42,312 nt of DNA from Pirellula staleyi DSM 6068 (GTDB lineage: Bacteria > Planctomycetota > Planctomycetia > Pirellulales > Pirellulaceae), in the NCBI GenBank assembly GCA_945875845.1, contig CAMCMB010000062.1:1-42312 (forward strand), given 5' to 3'. A program made the position numbers and the translations under genes. The notes beneath the pieces are model-generated. The model saw only the letters and a program-made list of their open reading frames with translations. It was not told where the DNA came from and did not search any database. Each line of letters starts with the position of its first letter. Within the stretch, counting starts at the first letter, position 1. Below are positions 1,618 through 14,202 of this stretch, piece by piece.

Positions 1618-2887
1618 CCGATCCAACAAGTTTCGCGAAGGAATGCAACGTATGATTCGGACGGTCATTCAAACTAGCTGGAGACGGTTGCGCAACAACC
1701 CCTCAGAGTTGTTCCTCACGTTTATTGTCCCTATGGTCTTTTTCAGTATCTTTGCGCTTATTTTTGGATCGAGAGATGCATCGTCCTCAACGCCCAAAAT
1801 CAAGATTGCAATCAGCAATGAATCGCCTTCGGAATTATCCGATCGATCGGTTCAACTTCTTGAGGAGCAATCGTCCCTTCGCATTTCACCGCCCAACAAA
1901 TCGAATGGTTCGAAATCGAACTCCTCCAAATCCCAGACGGTCAAGCGAGAAACGGCCCAAGATCTTGTGCGACGTGGAATGGTATCTGCGGCCGTTGTTT
2001 TTTCCGCACCCAAGAAAAGCAATCCTTCGGATGATATGTTCAAGGTCGAGATCATGACCGATTCGTTCGACCAGGTTGCCTCCCAGGTACTCGCTGCGAT
2101 CGTTCAGAAAGCGGTCATGACGGCGAACGCCGAAATTGCCAAGAAGAAACCGATCGACGCAGGAAGCGAATCGATGTCGAACGGAGTTGTATGGGCGAGA
2201 CACAACAACACAATGGGTATTGGAGCCAATTTTCCTCAGCCACCCGTGGTCGAGGTTGTCGACGTGATTGGAGGCAAAAAAGCCAATCCTGTAGTCGCCA
2301 TGTATGCCTCTGGAATTGCCGTCATGTTTTTATTGTTCAGCGCAACGACGGCGAGTGGATCGTTGCTCGAAGAACGCGAAAACTCAACCTTGGACCGGTT
2401 GCTCTGCAGTCGTCTCACCATGGATCAGCTTTTGCTTGGCAAGTGGGCTTACTTGACAATCATCGGTGCGATTCAAATGTCACTCATGTTCCTTTGGGGA
2501 GCATTGGTCTTCCGAATCGATTTGTTCAATCATCTCGAAGGTTTTGCGGCGATGACCCTGGTGACTGCGGGTGCCGCTTCCAGTTTCGCTCTGATGTTGG
2601 CTGCGATTTGCCAGTCTCGCATGCAGTTGGGGTGGGTTTCGACCATCGTCATTTTGTCGATGAGCGCCCTTGGCGGCAGCATGGTTCCAAGATACTTAAT
2701 GAGTGAAAACATCCAGCGAGTTGGCCTGTTGACCTTCAACGCCTGGGCGCTCGAAGGATACAACAAAGTCTTTTGGCGCGAGTTGCCGCTGAACGAACTC
2801 GGTATGGAATTGGCGGTGCTAACAACTTGCGGTTTTGTATTCATCGTAGCGGCTCGCATTTTCGCCGTCCGCTGGGAACGCTCATGA
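1610..2887 (+). CDS. ABC-2 type transporter, permease protein
   Basis: Membrane partner of the ATPase encoded just upstream. The 425-residue protein has one N-terminal membrane segment (about residues 36-54), a long hydrophilic extracytoplasmic region (about 60-215) rich in Ser, Lys and Asn, then five or six hydrophobic segments to the C-terminus, the ABC2_membrane_3 layout. The conserved SGSLLEERENSTLDRLL stretch after the second membrane segment is typical of ABC-2 permeases and contacts the ATPase. Start is GTG at 1610 inside the end of the ATPase gene; an ATG at 1643 is an alternative. The stop overlaps the hrpA start codon (ATGA at 2884-2887). Substrate cannot be inferred. Confidence 0.9.
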   Translation: MNDRSNKFREGMQRMIRTVIQTSWRRLRNNPSELFLTFIVPMVFFSIFALIFGSRDASSSTPKIKIAISNESPSELSDRSVQLLEEQSSLRISPPNKSNGSKSNSSKSQTVKRETAQDLVRRGMVSAAVVFSAPKKSNPSDDMFKVEIMTDSFDQVASQVLAAIVQKAVMTANAEIAKKKPIDAGSESMSNGVVWARHNNTMGIGANFPQPPVVEVVDVIGGKKANPVVAMYASGIAVMFLLFSATTASGSLLEERENSTLDRLLCSRLTMDQLLLGKWAYLTIIGAIQMSLMFLWGALVFRIDLFNHLEGFAAMTLVTAGAASSFALMLAAICQSRMQLGWVSTIVILSMSALGGSMVPRYLMSENIQRVGLLTFNAWALEGYNKVFWRELPLNELGMELAVLTTCGFVFIVAARIFAVRWERS

Positions 2888-5800
2888 GTCCAGTGTGTCC
2901 GCTTTCAGAACAGGAAGTACTCCGCCGATCCTACTTTCGATTGAAGGATCAGTGGCAACGTATAACCCGGTTGCCAGAAGGGGAGCGCAAGCAAGCCGAT
3001 ACCCAACGCTGGCATCACGCAGCCGCTCAAGCACGCGAGCAATTCGCCAGCCGTTGCAACACGAAATACACGATAGCTTACGATGCCGAACTTCCCATTT
3101 CGGCATATCGAGACAAGATCATCGATCTGCTTGTTCACCGGCAAGTCCTCGTTCTATGCGGTGAAACAGGCTCGGGCAAAAGCACGCAACTTCCAAAGCT
3201 CTGTTTGGAGGCGGGCTTTGGCAAAACCGGATGGATAGGCCATACGCAACCAAGGCGGCTCGCAGCCCGTTCGATCGCTCATCGATTGGCGGAGGAGCTC
3301 GACACCAAAGTCGGGGAAGTTGTCGGCTTCAAAGTCCGATTCAACGATCAAACTCAGAATGCGAGTTTGATCAAACTGATGACGGATGGAATCTTGTTGG
3401 CCGAGGTTCAGCGAGATCGATTTTTGGATGCATACGATTGCATCATCCTCGACGAGGCCCATGAACGGTCGCTCAATATCGACTTGTTGATGGCGTATCT
3501 GCAACGCTTGCTCCCACGTCGACCGGATCTGCGCATCGTCATTACCAGCGCGACAATTGACGCCGAACAATTCGCCAATCACTTCCAAGACGCCATTGGT
3601 CCAGCACCCATCGTAACCGTTGAGGGCCGTGGTTTTCCAGTTGAGGTGCGCTATCGAGGTGCATTGAGCGTTCGTGAATCCAACCTCTCCAACCGAGGCT
3701 CAATGGCAGCTGAGAATAGCCCCAATGCATACGATGATTTCGATTCGGTTACTCAACGCTTTTGCGATTCCGTTGACGAATTGCTTTCGGAAGGCCGCGG
3801 AGATATCCTGTCCTTCTTTGCAACCGAACGCGATATCCGCGACGCGGCCAAACAGTTGCGAGGACACTTGACCAACCGAGGGCTTCACAATTCGATCGAA
3901 GTGTTGCCGCTCTATGCAAGGCTGACAGAGGCCGAACAGCAACGGGTGTTCCAGCAGCACCGCATGCAACGTATTGTCCTAGCGACCAACGTGGCGGAAA
4001 GCTCCATCACCGTCCCTGGTATCCGATACGTTATCGACACCGGAACAGCCCGTATCTCGCGATTCGCCGCCAAGAGCAAAGTCCAACGACTCCCCATCGA
4101 ACCCATCTCCCAAGCCTCATGCAACCAGCGCTCGGGCCGTTGTGGTCGCCTGGGGCCCGGTATTGCCATCCGTTTGTACGATGAGTCGGATTTCTTGTCG
4201 CGGTCTGCGTTTGCAAGCCCCGAGATACGCCGTAGTGATTTGGCGTCGACGATCGTGCACATCAAATCCCTCGGCATTGACGACATTGAATCGCTTCCTT
4301 GGCTTGACCCACCCCGCCCCGATGCGGTGCGCGAAGGCATGAATGTCCTGCGTGAGCTTTCCGCAATTGATGAAACAGAACGACTGACGGAGACTGGCCG
4401 CAAGCTTGCTAGATGGCCGGTGGATCCTCGCGTCGGTCGCATCCTTATCGAGGCCGAGCGCAATGGCTGCCTCAACGATGCGCTCATCATTGCGGCTGCG
4501 ATGGAGACGCAAGATCCCCGCGTTCGGCCACCGGAAAAAGCCGCATCTGCCGACGAAGCACATCAAAAGTTTCGCGATCCTACTAGCGATTTTCTATCGT
4601 TCCTGCGAATCTGGGATTTCTATCATAAGCTTCGAGAGCAACTCGGTCGGTCACGCTTAGAAAAGGCTTGCCGCGACTCCTTTCTCTCGCTCGTTCGAAT
4701 GCGAGAGTGGGCAGATGTGCATCGCCAATTGCTTGAACAATGCAAGGAAATGAACTTGAGCGTTGGTAAGCGAAAAGCGCACTTGCCTGAGATAACTCTC
4801 CCCGAAGTCAACCCAAGGAACGTTCCAAAACAACGCGTTGCACCGAATCAAACTTCGCCAACTCGCGAATCATTGCAGCCGCCGGTAGTCAAAGGTCTAC
4901 CGGACGGGTATGAGTCGTTGCATTCCGCGCTGCTAAGTGGCCTTCTGTCGAATATTTCGATGCTTGAGGATGTTGGGAAGTACAAAGGAGCCCAAGGTCT
5001 CGAGGTCAATATCTGGCCAGGGTCCGGTCTTAAGCAAAGTCGCTCCAAGTGGATCGTTGCAGGCGAGTTGATCGAAACCACACAGCGTTATGCGCGCATG
5101 GTCGCTCGAATCGAGCTGGACTGGATCGAGCGATTAGCCCAGCACTTGATCAAATACAGTTTCGACGAACCCCACTTCAGCCAGAAACAAGGGAGTGCAC
5201 TCGTCGTGCGGCGAGGCACACTCTATGGATTGCCCGTCTCGCCTCGCGTCTCTGTGCCCCTGGCACCCATCGATCCGGCCATGGCTCGCAAGTTGCTGAT
5301 CGAACAGGGGCTTGCCGAAAACGAACTTGTTTCGCGAGCCAAGTTTTGGCAGCACAACCAATTGTTTCTTGAACAAGTGAAGGAACTTGGGGATAAAACG
5401 AGGCGCCGAGATTTGGTGATTGATACCTATGTGTTGACCGATTTTTATCGGGCATGCATTCCTGCGTTTGTAGTAGATCGGGTAACCCTCGAAAAATGGG
5501 ACCGTACGCTTTCCGCACCTGCAAAAGACAAGTCTTCGGTCAATCTATCGCAAGGTGAATTGGTTAAGTCTCCCTATTTAAGTTGGGAATCCCTCGCGGT
5601 TGATCTGGATCGACAAGAGGTGGAGGAACAGTATCCTGAGAAACTCGTCATGGGCGTCAGTCAATTGCCGCTTCGCTATCGCTACGAGCCGGGCGATCCA
5701 GCAGACGGTGTCAGCCTGGTCGTGCCGCAGTCGATCGTACATCAGTTGCATCACGAACGCCTGGAATGGCTCGTCCCAGGTTTGCTTGAGGAAAAGCTGG

Positions 5801-7104
5801 CGTGTCTGATCAAATCGTTGCCGAAGCGTTTGCGACGCCAATTGGTTCCGGTGCCGGACACCGTCAATCAATTGCTACCGAAGTTGATTCAAAAGCAGCA
5901 ACAGCAGGCCCCTTTCTGGAAATCGCTGTGCGAACTCTTGTCCGAGTTCATTCGTGAACCGGTCAAACAGTCGGACTTCGACTTGCAAAGCGTGCCCGAG
6001 CATTTGCGAATGCGGGTTGAGTTGGTGGATGACAAGGGTACGCCCATTCAATCGAGCCGGGATTTGGTCGATCTTCAGCAATCCCAGATGGCAACGGCAG
6101 CAGCCGCAATTTCGACCATGAGTGTTGATCAAAGGACCAAGTACGAGTGGTCGCGTACTTCGCTGGAGACTTGGGATATCGAGACTCTGCCCAAGTCGGT
6201 CGTCGAACTCCGTGGCGGTGTGCGGATGAATCGATTTCCAACCTTGGTGATAGATAAGGACAAGATCCGAACGGAGTTGGTGGATCATGAGGTCTTTGCG
6301 GAACAATTGTTTCGAAGGGGAATGACGACTCTTTTTGCAAGGATCGAACGGCGCGAAATTCGAAGTCAGATTCAATTCTTGCCTCAGTGGTCCTCGTGTT
6401 CGCTTTGGTTATCGGATCGTTATGCGGGGGATCGGTTGCGAGAGCTGGTTGGAGATTTGATCGCGCGCCTAGCTTTCCTCGATACGAATTGGGCGAGCGA
6501 GCAACTCTTACCTGTGTTTCGCACGCGTGTGGAGTTCGATATCAGTCGGTTGAAACGACTCGAGCGGATCGCGGGCGCGGCAGCCGAGGTGGGGCGCTGG
6601 TTACCTCGCTTTGCGGAGGCCAACCACAAAGTGCGTTCGCTTTTGGAACGGTCGCCGGCCAGTTGGTCTACCAATGTCCAATCGGTTCGAGGACAACTCG
6701 CGGCCTTATTTGATGAATCGCTTTCTTACTTGACACCTTGGTGCTTCGTCCGCGAAATACCCCGGTTTTTGCAAGCGGTGGCCGTCCGACTGGAGCGGTT
6801 GAAAACGGTTGGGCCCATCAAAGATTTGGAATTGGATGCAAGTGTGTCTCGATATTGGCAAGACTACCTTGAGAAGCTTGCAAGAGCACAGCCACCCCAA
6901 ACGGTCATGCAATTCATCCCAATCTCGAATGGGACGAGACTCGAAGCGACCGGCAAGCTGTTAGAATATCGATGGCTGATTGAGGAACTGAGAGTTTCGC
7001 TGCATGCACAGCAGCTAGGCACTCGCGTGAGTGTTTCTCCCAAGCGGTTGGACAAACTGGAAATCGATTGCAAATCGTCAGCTGAGTTCCTCAGAGAGCG
7101 GTAA
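2884..7104 (+). CDS. hrpA: ATP-dependent RNA helicase HrpA
   Basis: DEAH-box RNA helicase, 1406 residues from ATG 2884. The frame is open further upstream, but that part overlaps the permease and shows no homology; the ATGA overlap supports this start. Motifs from the N-terminus: Walker A GETGSGKST (93-101), DEAH (190-193), SAT (222-224), the motif VI region QRSGRCGR, a helicase-associated (HA2) region with SLPWLDPPRPDAV, then the long C-terminal part (DUF3418-like) that separates HrpA from shorter DEAH helicases. E. coli HrpA, which acts on ribosomes and mRNA, is of similar length. The last 27 bases overlap the end of the convergent scpB gene, and no terminator lies between them. Grouping with an ABC exporter is not explained by function. 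Confidence 0.95.
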   Translation: MSPVCPLSEQEVLRRSYFRLKDQWQRITRLPEGERKQADTQRWHHAAAQAREQFASRCNTKYTIAYDAELPISAYRDKIIDLLVHRQVLVLCGETGSGKSTQLPKLCLEAGFGKTGWIGHTQPRRLAARSIAHRLAEELDTKVGEVVGFKVRFNDQTQNASLIKLMTDGILLAEVQRDRFLDAYDCIILDEAHERSLNIDLLMAYLQRLLPRRPDLRIVITSATIDAEQFANHFQDAIGPAPIVTVEGRGFPVEVRYRGALSVRESNLSNRGSMAAENSPNAYDDFDSVTQRFCDSVDELLSEGRGDILSFFATERDIRDAAKQLRGHLTNRGLHNSIEVLPLYARLTEAEQQRVFQQHRMQRIVLATNVAESSITVPGIRYVIDTGTARISRFAAKSKVQRLPIEPISQASCNQRSGRCGRLGPGIAIRLYDESDFLSRSAFASPEIRRSDLASTIVHIKSLGIDDIESLPWLDPPRPDAVREGMNVLRELSAIDETERLTETGRKLARWPVDPRVGRILIEAERNGCLNDALIIAAAMETQDPRVRPPEKAASADEAHQKFRDPTSDFLSFLRIWDFYHKLREQLGRSRLEKACRDSFLSLVRMREWADVHRQLLEQCKEMNLSVGKRKAHLPEITLPEVNPRNVPKQRVAPNQTSPTRESLQPPVVKGLPDGYESLHSALLSGLLSNISMLEDVGKYKGAQGLEVNIWPGSGLKQSRSKWIVAGELIETTQRYARMVARIELDWIERLAQHLIKYSFDEPHFSQKQGSALVVRRGTLYGLPVSPRVSVPLAPIDPAMARKLLIEQGLAENELVSRAKFWQHNQLFLEQVKELGDKTRRRDLVIDTYVLTDFYRACIPAFVVDRVTLEKWDRTLSAPAKDKSSVNLSQGELVKSPYLSWESLAVDLDRQEVEEQYPEKLVMGVSQLPLRYRYEPGDPADGVSLVVPQSIVHQLHHERLEWLVPGLLEEKLACLIKSLPKRLRRQLVPVPDTVNQLLPKLIQKQQQQAPFWKSLCELLSEFIREPVKQSDFDLQSVPEHLRMRVELVDDKGTPIQSSRDLVDLQQSQMATAAAAISTMSVDQRTKYEWSRTSLETWDIETLPKSVVELRGGVRMNRFPTLVIDKDKIRTELVDHEVFAEQLFRRGMTTLFARIERREIRSQIQFLPQWSSCSLWLSDRYAGDRLRELVGDLIARLAFLDTNWASEQLLPVFRTRVEFDISRLKRLERIAGAAAEVGRWLPRFAEANHKVRSLLERSPASWSTNVQSVRGQLAALFDESLSYLTPWCFVREIPRFLQAVAVRLERLKTVGPIKDLELDASVSRYWQDYLEKLARAQPPQTVMQFIPISNGTRLEATGKLLEYRWLIEELRVSLHAQQLGTRVSVSPKRLDKLEIDCKSSAEFLRER

Positions 7105-7884
7105 ATCTTGTAGCGATTCGAGTCCGATAATTTCTAAAAAACGGTCGGTGGTAAAATACTGTGAGGGCGAACCCGTATCGTCAGGTGATTTCTCCACTTT
7201 CAACAAGCCCTTTCGGACAAGCAAGCTCAGCATATTTGCGGCGGGCTGATTCCATTGCTCTTCGAGCGCATCGCGTGTGATGCCAGGTTGATACGCAACC
7301 AACGCGAGGCAGTCGATCGCAGCTTGTGTCAGTTGCGTCTCTTTGACTTTGCCATAGAACCGATCTCGAGTCAAATGCATGTCGGAGACTAACTGCATCC
7401 GAAAACCTCCGAGCTCGCGAACGATCTCGACAACATATCCATGTTCTCGATAAAGCCTATTCAGTTTATCGATCGACAAGTCGAGTTCGGCCGCTGTGAC
7501 TCCTCGAAACATTTCCATCAATTTGACAATGGATAGCGGTTGATTGTTGCTTGAACCAAGGAACAGCATGGCTTCGAGAATCGATTCCGGTGTCACGGGA
7601 ATTCCATCGGACTCATCGACGATTGGTGCGGAAAGCATTTGCTCTCGGGGTGATGTCGTCGGGGCGTCGGCATCCAACGGTCCATTCACTCCAGTCGAAA
7701 CAAGTTGACTCGAATCCGTTGCTGGGGATGTCGTTTGCCCAAGGGCATGTGCGTAAGCCGTACCGAGTTCTTCTAGCGAGAACCCTTCTGAATCCTCATC
7801 GATGACCTCATCGAAATCATTGGGTTCAACTCGTGTTACGCCCTTGCTACCGAACATTAAGCTTGAGTCCTCGTCGACATGCAT
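7078..7884 (-). CDS. scpB: Segregation and condensation protein ScpB
   Basis: Kleisin-associated subunit of the SMC-ScpAB condensin; it binds ScpA and helps chromosome organisation and segregation. The core carries the family pattern: ILEAMLFLGS at the start of the first winged helix, QLTQAAIDCLALVAYQPGIT in the middle, and the second winged helix ending with QYFTTDRFLEIIGL. An acidic extension of about 85 residues precedes the core, making it longer (268 residues) than the usual ~200. Start ATG 7884 is chosen because it has a nearby GAGG and clears the upstream gene's stop; ATG 7857 and TTG 7929 are alternatives. It is the third gene of an HtrA / HtrA-like / scpB run. scpA is not in the window. 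Confidence 0.88.
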   Translation of the reverse strand: MHVDEDSSLMFGSKGVTRVEPNDFDEVIDEDSEGFSLEELGTAYAHALGQTTSPATDSSQLVSTGVNGPLDADAPTTSPREQMLSAPIVDESDGIPVTPESILEAMLFLGSSNNQPLSIVKLMEMFRGVTAAELDLSIDKLNRLYREHGYVVEIVRELGGFRMQLVSDMHLTRDRFYGKVKETQLTQAAIDCLALVAYQPGITRDALEEQWNQPAANMLSLLVRKGLLKVEKSPDDTGSPSQYFTTDRFLEIIGLESLQDLPLSEELS

Positions 7885-7900
7885 CCAACCTCGAAAGTCT

Positions 7901-9241
7901 CTATGGACGAAGGACTGCGTTTGGAGCAACGACTTCTGGTTTCAGCGCTTCGATGGAGATACCGGCCGGAACCGAAGTTGGCAAACCAAATGCGTTAGTG
8001 GGTGGTGCTTGCCGAGAAGCCTGTACCACGTTGGAGTTGTTCGACGACGGATTTCCAATAGCCGAACTGAGCATATCGGCGATGGCAGGAGCAAGGGTCT
8101 TAGCGGGGATGGCGTACGACGAGACGCGTCCAGCTCTGGCGATATTGATTCCGACGACGTTTCCGTGGATATCGATGACGGGTCCACCGCACTGATTCGG
8201 AGCAAGGACGGAATCGTGCTGAATCACTTTCTGAAAACCAGTCGCGCGGGCACTGATTTCGCCGTTGACTTCCATTTCGGTTGGATCGAGAAGCGCGTGG
8301 TTGAGATCCATCATCTGGGCCGTCAAGGATTCGGTGGTTCCTTCGCGTTGGATGCCAACATCCACGCGTTGTCCGGCGGCCAGACCACCGAGTCGATCTA
8401 GAACTTCCTTACGTGTTATGAGTGCATCCCCGTTGATTCGGTGAATCACGTCCCCCGTTCGGACACCGGCTCGATCGGCTCCACTGCCTTCGATGACTCC
8501 TTCGACTAACGCACCTTTCTCACTTGCGGGTGGCTCGCCCAAGGTCACACCAAGCACGGCTCGTTCGCGAGGCACGTTTCTGCTAGAAACACTTAATACT
8601 CCAATGGCGACCGGCAGATTCCGATTGTCGGAACTTATCAGCCAACCGCCTACAGGAACTTCGGCACGTGTATCCCAAGAGATGACAGGAAGGCCGATTC
8701 GTTCGATTTTGATAAGTGCTAAATCCAGGTCAGTCCGACGCGTTTTAACCATCCCTTCGGCCTTCGAACCGTCGAACAATCGAACGTCGATCTTGCCATC
8801 CGGAACTTCGCTCGATTTGGTAACAATCCAGCCATCGACGGAAACAGTGGCACCGAGAGCGATTTGCCGGTTTTTTTCGAGGATCTGAACGGTGGACTTC
8901 CAGTGATCGCCGACCGATTCACGAAAGGCTTTCAGGGTCGCGTACTGGTTACGCTGATTCGCTCGATTGCTACCGTCGTTCGATTCTCGACCAAATCGAG
9001 AGTTTCCTCGCTGCTGAATCAACCGGGATTTGGTCTCGGATTCCGAGTCTACGTTCTGCTCGGAGAGTTCGTCCGTTCGGGCAGACTCATCATGATCTCG
9101 TGGCACATCGGTGAAGGACCAAAATTCCTCGATGGAATGAGCAGAATTCAAAAGATCTCGAGTTGGATTACCCGAGCTAGCGTAGGTTACAACGCTAGCC
9201 GCGACGGTTCCGCCAACAATCCATGAGAGCCAATTCTTCAT
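7901..9241 (-). CDS. HtrA-like pseudoprotease with PDZ domain inserted inside the trypsin fold
   Basis: 446 residues. The N-terminus has an uncleaved-anchor-like hydrophobic stretch (about 7-22), then a charged linker to ~100. The trypsin-like fold begins near 115. Where HtrA has TAAHV this protein has TKSSEV (141-146), so the catalytic His is absent. The Asp region DLDLALIKI (171-179) is preserved. Where HtrA has GNSGGP this protein has NQCGGP (349-354), Cys replacing Ser. A PDZ domain (about 229-312, with GSGADRAGVRTGDVI) lies between the Asp and Cys motifs rather than after the protease domain; the fold then resumes with IQHDSVLAPNQCGGP and ends IARAGRVSSYAIP. A Pro/Ser/Asn-rich tail follows. 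It lies 87 bases downstream of an intact HtrA homologue. A scaffold or regulatory role is inferred; cysteine-based catalysis without the His is unlikely. Confidence 0.85.
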   Translation of the reverse strand: MKNWLSWIVGGTVAASVVTYASSGNPTRDLLNSAHSIEEFWSFTDVPRDHDESARTDELSEQNVDSESETKSRLIQQRGNSRFGRESNDGSNRANQRNQYATLKAFRESVGDHWKSTVQILEKNRQIALGATVSVDGWIVTKSSEVPDGKIDVRLFDGSKAEGMVKTRRTDLDLALIKIERIGLPVISWDTRAEVPVGGWLISSDNRNLPVAIGVLSVSSRNVPRERAVLGVTLGEPPASEKGALVEGVIEGSGADRAGVRTGDVIHRINGDALITRKEVLDRLGGLAAGQRVDVGIQREGTTESLTAQMMDLNHALLDPTEMEVNGEISARATGFQKVIQHDSVLAPNQCGGPVIDIHGNVVGINIARAGRVSSYAIPAKTLAPAIADMLSSAIGNPSSNNSNVVQASRQAPPTNAFGLPTSVPAGISIEALKPEVVAPNAVLRP

Positions 9242-9328
9242 CTGGGCTTGCCTTCGGTTGCTTAAAAACTATTTGTGGAAGTGACCATTATAGTCATAGA
9301 TAGTCCGACAATGGAAACACTTTGTATT

Positions 9329-10507
9329 CTATTCTCGAACGCCCACGATAAGCCGCAATGATTTGATGAGTCCGTCCCTTTGCAGTTCGACCACGACTTG
9401 CTCGCCGGGAGTTACGGAATCAACCGCTTCCTTGAGATTGTCAAAGTTTTGGACAGTGAGGCTATCGAACTTGAGAATGATATCGCCTGCTCGGATGCCT
9501 GCTTTGTCTGCGGGCCCACCTGCGTCGACGATCGCAATTTTGCACATATCGCTACTTCCGGGTTCCGTCGCCCCACGAACGCCGATCGCAGGTTTGAAGC
9601 CAGGCAAGGTGCCCCAGGCTTCGCGTTTCACCAATCGGTCCCAGCTTTCGGCGAAGACGTCGACGGGTACGTGCATATTGTCATCCACATCGACACCGAT
9701 TCGACTGTGGATCCCGATCAGTTCGCCGTGGAGATTGAACAACGGTCCGCCGCTATCGCCACCGATCAAGGCGCAGTCGGTAATGAGCGTTGACGGCAGG
9801 AACTTCAAAAGCCGCCCCACGCGTAAAACGGCAGGCCGATCCGGAGTCCATCCACCAGGATGCCCGGTTGCCAGACACCATTGTCCTTTTTTCAAGTCGG
9901 ATGAGATGCCGATCGTGGCGTGGGGCCAAGGGTCCAACTTGGTGTCGCGTGCGGGTTTTGTGATAAGAACCAAGCCTGCATCCATGTTCCGATTCACCCC
10001 CATCGTTTCCCCTTCAATTCGCGTCCCATCTTGCAAGATGATGTTGATGCGCTGTTTGGGGCGACCCGCCACATGCGCCGCAGTCAAGATAAAGCCGTCG
10101 CCGGTGATAATAACTCCACTCCCTTGCGTGCTGCCGTGCTGCAGATTGACGGTTACAGCGTTGATCTTTTCCGCAACTTTGGCTTGTTGATTTTGAAGCG
10201 CAATGAGTTCCAATTTGTTCTTGGGTTCGTCGCCGCGAAGAACACTTTCGAGACCAAGCTCCACGCTTACCGAAGTAACTCCGATAGTCCGTTCTCGGAT
10301 TTTGAAATCTGAGCTCGGCAAAGAGGGCTTGAGCATCGATCGTTCGAGCGGCTTGGCCTGTGCCGAGGGTTGCCGAAGCTCTTGTGCCGAAACGATCGAC
10401 AATTGCAAAATCACTTGGAGTCCGGTCGCTGCCAACACTTGCCAAAATTTTGGGCGCGAGCGTGGATTCGCGAGGTTACACCATTCTCTTGGCAAGGTAG
10501 ACTCCAT
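9329..10507 (-). CDS. HtrA/DegP-like serine protease with C-terminal PDZ domain
   Basis: Predicted envelope serine endopeptidase for misfolded proteins. From ATG 10507 it is 392 residues, with a signal peptide (basic n-region RSRPKFW, hydrophobic core, cleavage after VSA near residue 42). The catalytic triad is intact: TAAHV (His), MDAGLVLI (Asp) and GGDSGGP (Ser), followed by one PDZ domain with GPADKAGIRAGDIILKF and LQRDG near the C-terminus. An in-frame TTG at 10579 would add 24 residues with a Cys cluster (CADC...CDEHC), judged less likely because it disrupts the signal peptide. First gene of a minus-strand run with the HtrA-like pseudoprotease and scpB; divergent from the epimerase gene at 10709. 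Confidence 0.9.
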   Translation of the reverse strand: MESTLPREWCNLANPRSRPKFWQVLAATGLQVILQLSIVSAQELRQPSAQAKPLERSMLKPSLPSSDFKIRERTIGVTSVSVELGLESVLRGDEPKNKLELIALQNQQAKVAEKINAVTVNLQHGSTQGSGVIITGDGFILTAAHVAGRPKQRINIILQDGTRIEGETMGVNRNMDAGLVLITKPARDTKLDPWPHATIGISSDLKKGQWCLATGHPGGWTPDRPAVLRVGRLLKFLPSTLITDCALIGGDSGGPLFNLHGELIGIHSRIGVDVDDNMHVPVDVFAESWDRLVKREAWGTLPGFKPAIGVRGATEPGSSDMCKIAIVDAGGPADKAGIRAGDIILKFDSLTVQNFDNLKEAVDSVTPGEQVVVELQRDGLIKSLRLIVGVRE

Positions 10508-10708
10508 ACAATGTTCGTCGCAATCATTCCAAGGACAATCCGCACAAAACGTCGTGTGGGTTTGATTATTCGCTAACAATCTCGAAAATGAAACCCGTTT
10601 GTCTCAAGAAACTTCAGAAAGCAACCGGCCCCGCGTGGAAATGCAGGGGTTTTGTAGCGATAGTGCCGATTTAGTCATGGGTGTCGGACTGTTTATGGGG
10701 CAATCCTG

Positions 10709-12960: not shown

Positions 12961-14202
12961 ATGAGAAATACATTAAAATGGTTGTCTGGATCAACGCTCG
13001 TTGCGTTGCTTTGTGTTGGTGCGTGCGACGCGAATGCTGGCCATGGCTCAGGCGGTGGTAGCAGCGGCGGATACGCCGCGGGGTATGGATCAAGCGGCGG
13101 TTATTCTGCCGGATACGGTTCAAGCGGCGGTTATTCTGCTGGATATGGTTCAAGCGGCGGTTCTTCCGGTGGCGGTTACTACGGCGGATCTTCCGGTGGC
13201 AGTTCGTCGGTTGGTCACGTTGGACCCTTGCGTCGACTTCACGCGAAAATCCATGACCATCTTCATGCCAAAGTAGCTACCCGCTCAGCTTATTACGGTT
13301 CATCTGGCGGTTCTTCGGGTGGGGGGTGGTCTGGTGGGTACGCTCCAATACGTTACTCGGCGAGTTACGGCGGTTCGGGTCGGCGCGCAGGTTACGGTGG
13401 CTCCTCTGGCGGTGGCTCCTCTGGCGGTGGCTCCTCGGGCGGTGGCTCCTCGGGAGGCAGTGCCTATTACTACGGCAGTAGCTACTCCTCAGGTGGTTCA
13501 TCCGGCTATTCCTACGGCGGCGACAATCCAGGTTCCTCGTTGAACTATGGCAATATGGAGGTTCCAGGTCCGTCCATTCCAATGGAAAGCGAATACAGCG
13601 GATACAGCGGATACAGTCCGATTATGTCCAGGACCACATCGGGAATCCAAGCTTCAAGCAAGTTGGCATCCGGCGTCGCCATTCAGCCAACCGAAGTTCA
13701 TCTGGTAGTGAAATTGCCCGAATCCGCAAAGGTATTCGTAAACGGAAAATTGACCTCAACGACCGGCGAAGTACGACGTTTCGTTAGCCGTGATCTGAAA
13801 GAAGACCAAGCCTATCGATTTGAAGTAAAGGCAGTTTTGACCCATGAGGATGGCTCGGAAGTCTTTCAAAACAAGACAGTCGTAATCAATAGCGGCTTTG
13901 CGGAAGAGCTGACCTTCGATATGAAGAACGCAGACGATCCGGTCGAAACGATTTTGACCTTGAACGTTCCAGAAAATGCAAAGGTTGTTTTGGCCCAAAA
14001 CGCAACCAAGTCGGATGGCTCGTCCCGCGTTTATCGGACCAAGCAATTACGCGAAGGCCAAGCATGGGACGACTATAAGATCGAGGTGACCTACGAAGGC
14101 GTGACCAAGGAAAAAACCATCCGATTGATCGGTGGCGATAAATTAGAACTAAGTTTCAAATTTGATTCCGAGTACAACGCGAACAAAGTTGCCTCAAACT
14201 AG
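12961..14202 (+). CDS. Secreted Gly/Ser-rich protein with two TIGR03000-type domains
   Basis: 413 residues. A signal peptide (about 1-26, ending near ANAG) is followed by a low-complexity region (27-190) built from GYGSSGGYSA and GGSSG units, interrupted at 85-108 by a basic patch, RRLHAKIHDHLHAKVATR. Two homologous beta-rich domains follow, about 244-322 (LVVKLPESAKVFVNGKLT...) and 329-402 (LTLNVPENAKVVL...), each matching the pattern of TIGR03000, a domain I know essentially from planctomycetes. A strong ribosome binding site GGAGG sits 8 bases upstream of ATG 12961, and a good terminator follows at 14264-14290, so it is a single-gene unit that may be highly expressed. Surface or cell-wall-like role inferred; biochemical function unknown. 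Confidence 0.88.
   Translation: MRNTLKWLSGSTLVALLCVGACDANAGHGSGGGSSGGYAAGYGSSGGYSAGYGSSGGYSAGYGSSGGSSGGGYYGGSSGGSSSVGHVGPLRRLHAKIHDHLHAKVATRSAYYGSSGGSSGGGWSGGYAPIRYSASYGGSGRRAGYGGSSGGGSSGGGSSGGGSSGGSAYYYGSSYSSGGSSGYSYGGDNPGSSLNYGNMEVPGPSIPMESEYSGYSGYSPIMSRTTSGIQASSKLASGVAIQPTEVHLVVKLPESAKVFVNGKLTSTTGEVRRFVSRDLKEDQAYRFEVKAVLTHEDGSEVFQNKTVVINSGFAEELTFDMKNADDPVETILTLNVPENAKVVLAQNATKSDGSSRVYRTKQLREGQAWDDYKIEVTYEGVTKEKTIRLIGGDKLELSFKFDSEYNANKVASN
13081..13167. repeat. In-gene 30-bp tandem repeats encoding GYGSSGGYSA
   Basis: Units at 13081-13110 and 13111-13140 with a diverged third beginning at 13141 encode GYGSSGGYSA. A second array of 15-bp GGTGGCTCCTCTGGC units (about 13398-13450) encodes GGSSG. 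Both lie within the low-complexity part of the TIGR03000 protein and are likely to vary in copy number between strains. Confidence 0.8.

Follow-up and report, generated by a model that had tools for sequence, protein, structure and literature searches.

The stretch of DNA considered here (referred to below as the window) comprises 42,312 nucleotides of contig CAMCMB010000062.1 from Pirellula staleyi DSM 6068, and it contains on its minus strand a gene for an unusual HtrA-like protein that lies next to the gene for an ordinary one. The open reading frame (ORF) of the former, which we will refer to as the pseudo-HtrA gene, runs from an ATG at position 9241 to a stop at 7901 (7901..9241) and specifies a protein of 446 amino acids (aa), P0001, comprised of a predicted N-terminal signal or anchor, suggested by the sequence MKNWLSWIVGGTVAASVVTYA, and a trypsin fold with a PDZ domain within its barrel 2. 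Trypsin_2 and PDZ were the sole Pfam families found across the 446 aa; Trypsin_2 matched in two stretches, the best of which covers residues 130–203 (protein E-value 1.8e-8), and PDZ_2 matched residues 240–308 (E-value 5.3e-10). The HtrA models of NCBIfam aligned with separate stretches only, and their scores were far under the cut-offs. The original prediction for this locus had described an order of motifs consisting of a His-region devoid of His, an Asp-region, a PDZ domain and a Cys-containing counterpart of the Ser motif, and all of these were found where it had placed them, viz. TKSSEV at residues 141–146, DLDLALIKI at 171–179, then the PDZ, and NQCGGP at 349–354 (8180..8197). Within the first of these motifs, S144 of the sequence KSSE (residues 142–145; 8807..8818) occupies the site of the catalytic His. 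The triad Asp, D173 (8723..8725), is retained, and C351, the single Cys of the protein, is present at the nucleophile site.

The active partner HtrA gene is located directly upstream (9329..10579, minus strand), separated by an intergenic gap of 87 nt (9242..9328) inside which no terminator-like site was found. Its product is 416 aa long as called from a TTG codon (the true start may be later), and it shows the common arrangement of a protease domain (Trypsin_2, 153–290) followed by a C-terminal PDZ (PDZ_2, 345–410). The alignment of partner proteins identifies all three of its catalytic residues, H169 (10073..10075), D200 (9980..9982) and S276 (9752..9754), the last within GGDSGGP. It also has a Cys at residue 269, in the motif TDC, seven residues ahead of the catalytic Ser, which is found in 60 of 64 rows of partner sequences and in 119 of 120 fused proteins (described below).

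The structure of P0001, as predicted by AlphaFold2 from 50 aligned sequences, has a mean pLDDT (predicted local distance difference test) of 73 and a pTM (predicted template modeling score) of 0.63, with low confidence over roughly the N-terminal 100 residues as well as in the C-terminal tail. In this model, two strands of barrel 2 precede the PDZ and the remaining strands of this barrel follow it. Superpositions by Foldseek upon structures from the PDB were poor (TMq 0.20–0.25 and root mean square deviation >11 Å among the 50 rows listed), which is what a perturbation of the alignment by an inserted domain would produce; the fit was resolved by VIA-align, run on the chains ranked by Foldseek, where residues 99–395 matched one HtrA protease domain. 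As these matches include DegS structures without a PDZ, the PDZ in the predicted structure is an insert that is looped out of barrel 2 of a single complete HtrA trypsin fold. Based upon the predicted strands and the VIA-align ranges, the first piece of this fold (residues 101–228; 8558..8941) contains barrel 1 and the first two strands of barrel 2, and the second piece consists of residues 313–395 (8057..8305). The inserted PDZ, delimited from Pfam and AlphaFold2 (residues 229–312; 8306..8557), carries the sequence LGV (L230–V232), which we take to be its carboxylate-loop-like motif, and a stretch that is strongly conserved in the near-family alignment (A1), DPTEMEVNGEISARATGF (residues 319–336; 8234..8287), is found between the PDZ and the second piece. 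The original prediction that the PDZ had been inserted in the second barrel ahead of the nucleophile strand, with the sequences on its two sides forming one trypsin-like fold, is thus borne out by the model. In an alignment with DegP, DegQ and DegS of Escherichia coli, the insertion occurs after R221 (8579..8581), which corresponds to R178 of DegS. Loop L3 of DegS spans residues 176–189 (PMC11642142), and the insertion in the modeled protein is accordingly in L3, with the L3 arginine at its N-terminal edge. All of our structure predictions are of single chains (monomers). A further alignment (A2), in which fused and split rows were combined and the dead subunits became distributed across the two halves, was left out of the folding.

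To place this protein among its relatives, two sets of sequences were used. In a protein search with P0001 the 7998 best candidates were scored, 723 of which were homologues at E ≤ 1e-3, and the best 120 of these together with P0001 make up the near-family alignment of 121 rows. The wider set of 76 rows consists of the window protein and its counterparts from 75 homologous loci in the Planctomycetota and Verrucomicrobiota, of which 55 were found in genome contigs by sequence patterns and 20 are regions picked from a profile search of 199 phylum genomes. This profile search matched 117 of the 199 genomes, many by their PDZ only, and 18 of them reached E ≤ 1e-40; ten further regions, mostly long fused ones, are outside the 75-locus count. 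Hosts of these genes include, by name, Pirellula, Lacipirellula, Thermogutta, a Gemmataceae genome and, from the Verrucomicrobiota, Rubritalea.

Residues K142, E145, D173, H342, C351, G352, G353 and P354 are invariant in the near family (121/121), as are L230 and G231 of the PDZ. At position 144 the near family has Ser in 119 rows and Thr in two but never His, and in the wider set the corresponding numbers are 68 Ser, six Thr and two gaps, with no His in the 74 scorable rows. The triad Asp is present in all 75 scorable rows of the wider set, and the nucleophile position is occupied by Cys in 73 of the 76 rows, by Ile in two and by Met in one. The frequency of Cys is biased in the 55 pattern-found loci, as the search patterns contained either CGGP or EVNGxIS; among the 20 profile-found loci it is present in 17. 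Besides the near-invariant Cys, the motifs QHD and K-x-S-E are conserved in this family. With the triad His and Ser both lost, P0001 is most probably catalytically dead, as had been proposed. Where members of this family are named in the search lists, they appear as "serine protease Do," "S1C family serine protease" or "PDZ domain-containing protein." In comparisons with two relatives that are 87% identical, the ratio of nonsynonymous to synonymous substitution rates (dN/dS) of the pseudo-HtrA gene was 0.18–0.19, and the gene is therefore under purifying selection; with the same relatives this ratio was 0.09–0.12 for the partner HtrA and 0.19–0.22 for scpB. When three more distant relatives were compared, in nine pairs, saturation was seen in eight, and the remaining pair, for the partner, gave a value of 0.12.

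The pairing of the pseudo-HtrA with an active HtrA is well supported. The partner gene lies upstream on the same strand in 53 of the 75 loci, with a gap of at most 150 nt in 50 of these, and in ten other loci both proteins are encoded in one ORF; the pattern-found loci contribute 44 upstream partners and four fusions to these numbers and the profile-found loci nine and six, respectively. Every one of the 63 scorable partner rows (64 in total) contains the His, Asp and Ser. In an order-level survey of 146 genomes, with cut-offs of E ≤ 1e-30 for the dead gene and E ≤ 1e-58 for the partner, the former was found in 68 genomes and the latter in 65, both being present in 64, the dead gene only in four, the partner only in one, and neither in 77. 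A Fisher p-value for this co-occurrence ignores shared ancestry and we do not use it as evidence. The partner was directly upstream on the same strand at 66 of the 75 places of the dead gene in this survey, with fused forms counted in. Among the matched genomes, 23 are from the window's own family, and no unmatched member of this family was seen among the genomes listed.

The two members of the pair also differ from each other in loops that are important for HtrA regulation. It is reported that the L3 arginine of one HtrA subunit touches the LD loop of its neighbor (PMC11642142; PMC5666011; PMC6172425), and this route in trans, from L3 to the LD loop of the adjoining subunit (LD'), is a published one (PMC11642142; PMC5666011), with Pro161, Tyr162 and Leu164 as the published LD' residues of DegS. 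Our marker for the LD region, G[NHQ]P, rests on the DegS numbering, where these three residues fall within GNPYNL by our own count. In the dead subunit the L3 arginine is present in 119/121 rows of the near family, 66/76 of the wider set and 112/120 of the fused proteins, and the frequencies of G[NHQ]P in the same sets are 0/121, 1/76 and 4/120. In the active subunit this motif is found in 56 of 63 partners and in all 120 fused active halves. The active subunit is also distinguished by its spacing between GHP and TD. This segment is 26 residues long in the window's partner (9779..9856), in 50 of 63 partners and in 120 of 120 fused proteins, the other partners having 25, 27, 28, 34 or 38; it is 31 residues in each of E. 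coli DegP, DegQ and DegS, and 30, 31 and 33 in three own-genome HtrAs. The reference for this comparison is limited to these six proteins because the majority of own-genome Trypsin_2 genes either failed to align around L3 or were truncated at a locus end. Judged from this spacing, L3 of the active partner is shortened relative to E. coli DegP, DegQ and DegS.

Information regarding the fused forms comes mainly from a search with one such protein (L102), which gave 2391 matches; the counts out of 120 fused proteins, here and above, are based upon the best 120 of these. In all 120, the His, Asp and Ser of the first protease domain are intact, and the second domain lacks the His (this site is occupied by Ser in 114 and Asp in six) but has both the Asp and the Cys. 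In these chains 99–102 residues separate the active Ser from the KASE motif of the second domain, and thus their active half would have no room for a PDZ and a single PDZ, in the dead half, would serve both. The single-chain model of a fused protein, P0122, has a mean pLDDT of 88.7 and a pTM of 0.75, and its residues 54–247 match complete HtrA protease domains. In long fused chains of 894–1143 aa, PDZ matches are located between the first and second pieces of the dead domain, with two in the same loop in L113, L114, L117, L119, L120 and L122 and four in L121. Among the long relatives, L113, L114, L117 and L119 have Gln at the nucleophile site, L120 has Met, L122 has Val, and L115 and L121 have Cys. 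One protein, L118 (contig C44 of genome G087, ORF 2047–4458, plus strand, 803 aa), contains three HtrA-like stretches, of which the first lacks triad motifs, the middle one has GGDSGGG, and the last is of the dead PDZ-bearing type; neither class fits it cleanly.

In an ordinary HtrA trimer, binding of a peptide to the PDZ shifts L3, whose arginine then reaches the LD loop of the neighboring subunit and orders its active site. In the pair described here these tasks appear to be split, with the active subunit retaining the His-Asp-Ser triad and the G-H-P of the LD region but having a shortened L3, and the dead subunit, which has lost the His, the Ser and G-H-P, keeping the L3 arginine and housing a PDZ in L3 itself. 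We therefore favor, with somewhat better than even confidence, the interpretation that this pseudoprotease is exported and acts in trans as the sensing subunit of a two-component HtrA. After export, it would assemble with the HtrA that is encoded just upstream, to which it is joined in one chain in many relatives, and a peptide or misfolded protein bound by its PDZ would exert an effect on the active partner. Activation of the partner is in our view likelier than its inhibition. The suggestion in the original prediction that the fold has been maintained for another role, such as peptide sensing or inhibition of a partner protease, is supported, with sensing being the favored function. A broader possibility, for which our confidence falls short of even, is that in the Planctomycetota and Verrucomicrobiota the HtrA mechanism has been split by complementary loss into a catalytic subunit without L3 sensing and a dead subunit that senses with the PDZ in its L3 and signals only in trans, giving rise to an obligate hetero-oligomeric, and often fused, class of HtrA.

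Pairs of active and dead HtrA domains are already known, as is a PDZ within a different protease fold. Like the window's pair, MamO and MamE combine a degenerate triad with an active HtrA, and MamO is reported to be required, without its triad, for MamE to process its targets (PMC4794232). P0001 differs from MamO in scoring 37.1 bits on the NCBIfam MamO model, the cut-off of which is 800. In Arabidopsis Deg7, a clade III Deg/HtrA, active and degenerate protease domains are in one chain (PMC3473262), as they are in the fused relatives of P0001. The window, unlike Deg7, has separate genes, with fusion seen in 10/75 loci and in the best 120 homologues of L102, and its PDZ lies inside the dead domain whereas the PDZ tandems of Deg7 are outside the protease domains; the portions of the Deg7 article available to us do not mention a PDZ inserted within the protease fold (PMC3473262). 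With DegS, DegP and other canonical HtrA proteins (S1C), P0001 shares the trypsin fold, the triad Asp (D173), the L3 arginine and an HtrA-type PDZ, but it has S144 and C351 in place of the triad His and Ser, and its PDZ is inside barrel 2 rather than C-terminal to the protease domain. The C-terminal processing proteases of family S41 (Prc, CtpA/B) have a protease fold that is different from HtrA and, unlike P0001, they are active enzymes. Their likeness to P0001 lies in a regulatory PDZ that is embedded in the protease domain (PMC6686036).

A number of observations weigh against the proposed division of work. Adjacency and fusion indicate functional linkage, not the direction of control. No partner was found at 12 of the 75 loci; five of these are cut by a contig end and seven have room for one, two of the latter (L085 and L106) being apparently from one genome, as their contigs are both 204,672 bases long. 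When five such unlinked genomes (that of L063 not included) were searched, each was found to hold one strong partner-type HtrA elsewhere, with best E-values of 6e-110 to 7e-100 and next best of 9e-53 to 2e-46. In four genomes of the order-level survey the dead gene is present and no partner reaches the cut-off. The distribution of the loops also has exceptions, as the L3 arginine is missing in 10/76 of the diverse rows and 8/120 of the fused ones, and G[NHQ]P is absent from 7/63 partners and present in 1/76 and 4/120 dead rows. Further, the split active partner retains its own PDZ, and the fused proteins L079, L108, L111 and L112 have a PDZ match in or after the active half, between the two halves; hence, the PDZ of the dead half need not be required by the active one. 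A quick tree of 70 rows, from which 17 near-duplicate or fragment loci had been dropped and in which L050, cut by a contig end, was labeled solo, requires six changes between the fused and split states, only one of which is forced by the starred branches. In the known pair, physical interaction of MamO with MamE was reportedly undetected and the transporter domain of MamO was needed (PMC4794232).

The evidence of pairing, namely the linkage, fusion and co-occurrence, also fits a dead subunit that works chiefly as a structural scaffold or as an adaptor for substrates, one that trimerizes or recruits the active HtrA and whose PDZ captures substrates without allosteric signaling. There is precedent for this in Deg7, whose inactive protease domain reportedly takes part in trimerization (PMC3473262), and the relatives with two or four PDZs in the same loop give the appearance of extra binding capacity. 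We regard this as the less probable explanation, since it gives no reason for an insertion precisely in L3, for an L3 arginine that most members retain, or for the short L3 of the active subunit. Alternatively, the dead protein could be an inhibitor of the active HtrA, which might sit in the active site, for instance, or hold an oligomer at rest until a ligand binds the PDZ, and the PDZ of DegS does inhibit through L3 contacts in the absence of ligand (PMC11642142); however, the permanent fusion seen in many relatives is more in keeping with a regulator built into the enzyme than with a simple inhibitor, and we consider this explanation unlikely.

The two remaining explanations center on the conserved Cys, and both of them appear very improbable. 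Cysteine proteases of the chymotrypsin fold exist, and P0001 could be an active cysteine protease or thiol enzyme in which C351 is served by a different base, such as H342, K142 or E145, which like C351 are invariant in the near family (121/121 each). However, no scorable row has His at the His site, and those longer relatives in which Gln, Met or Val occupies the nucleophile site retain both the architecture and the His. A Cys-His dyad is rejected, as the loss patterns of the two residues are uncoupled: the Cys is lost and the His kept in L103, L109 and L110, and the reverse is seen in L081, L082, L083, L087 and L091. Similarly, C351, being the lone Cys of the window protein, could form a regulatory disulfide with C269 in the TDC motif of the partner; both residues are conserved (121/121 and 60/64, and for C511 and C197 of the fused proteins 120/120 and 119/120, respectively). 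The losses of these two Cys are again not coupled, with L103 and L109 lacking that of the dead subunit but keeping that of the partner and L065, L108 and L111 showing the opposite, and this bond is likewise rejected.

In searches of open-licence papers we found no description of a PDZ inside L3 of a dead HtrA or of its pairing with an active HtrA across these phyla, which may be published elsewhere, and the accessible text of a PDZ census with planctomycetes does not mention this architecture (PMC6411480). If the sensing interpretation holds, its significance lies in the route by which HtrA activation is thought to proceed, from PDZ to L3 to the LD loop of the neighbor, where effects in cis and in trans are hard to separate in homo-oligomers. 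A natural pair that apparently has its sensing parts in one subunit and its catalytic parts in the other would make the trans step directly testable. In addition, this is a large conserved family, for the dead part of which protease activity would be wrongly assumed under the current names.

Some other features of this region may also be noted. Within the C-terminal 40 residues of P0001, a tail of the form LPxSVPxGIxVExLKPEV is kept in most near relatives and has low predicted confidence; it is possibly a docking motif. Downstream of the pseudo-HtrA gene is scpB (7078–7929, minus strand), which overlaps it by 29 bases (7901–7929) as called, and a ScpB gene is also found downstream, directly or slightly further, in seven close relatives (L038–L044). 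Elsewhere in the window, positions 12961–14202 (plus strand) encode a protein in which long repeats rich in Gly, Ser and Tyr precede TIGR03000 planctomycete domains.
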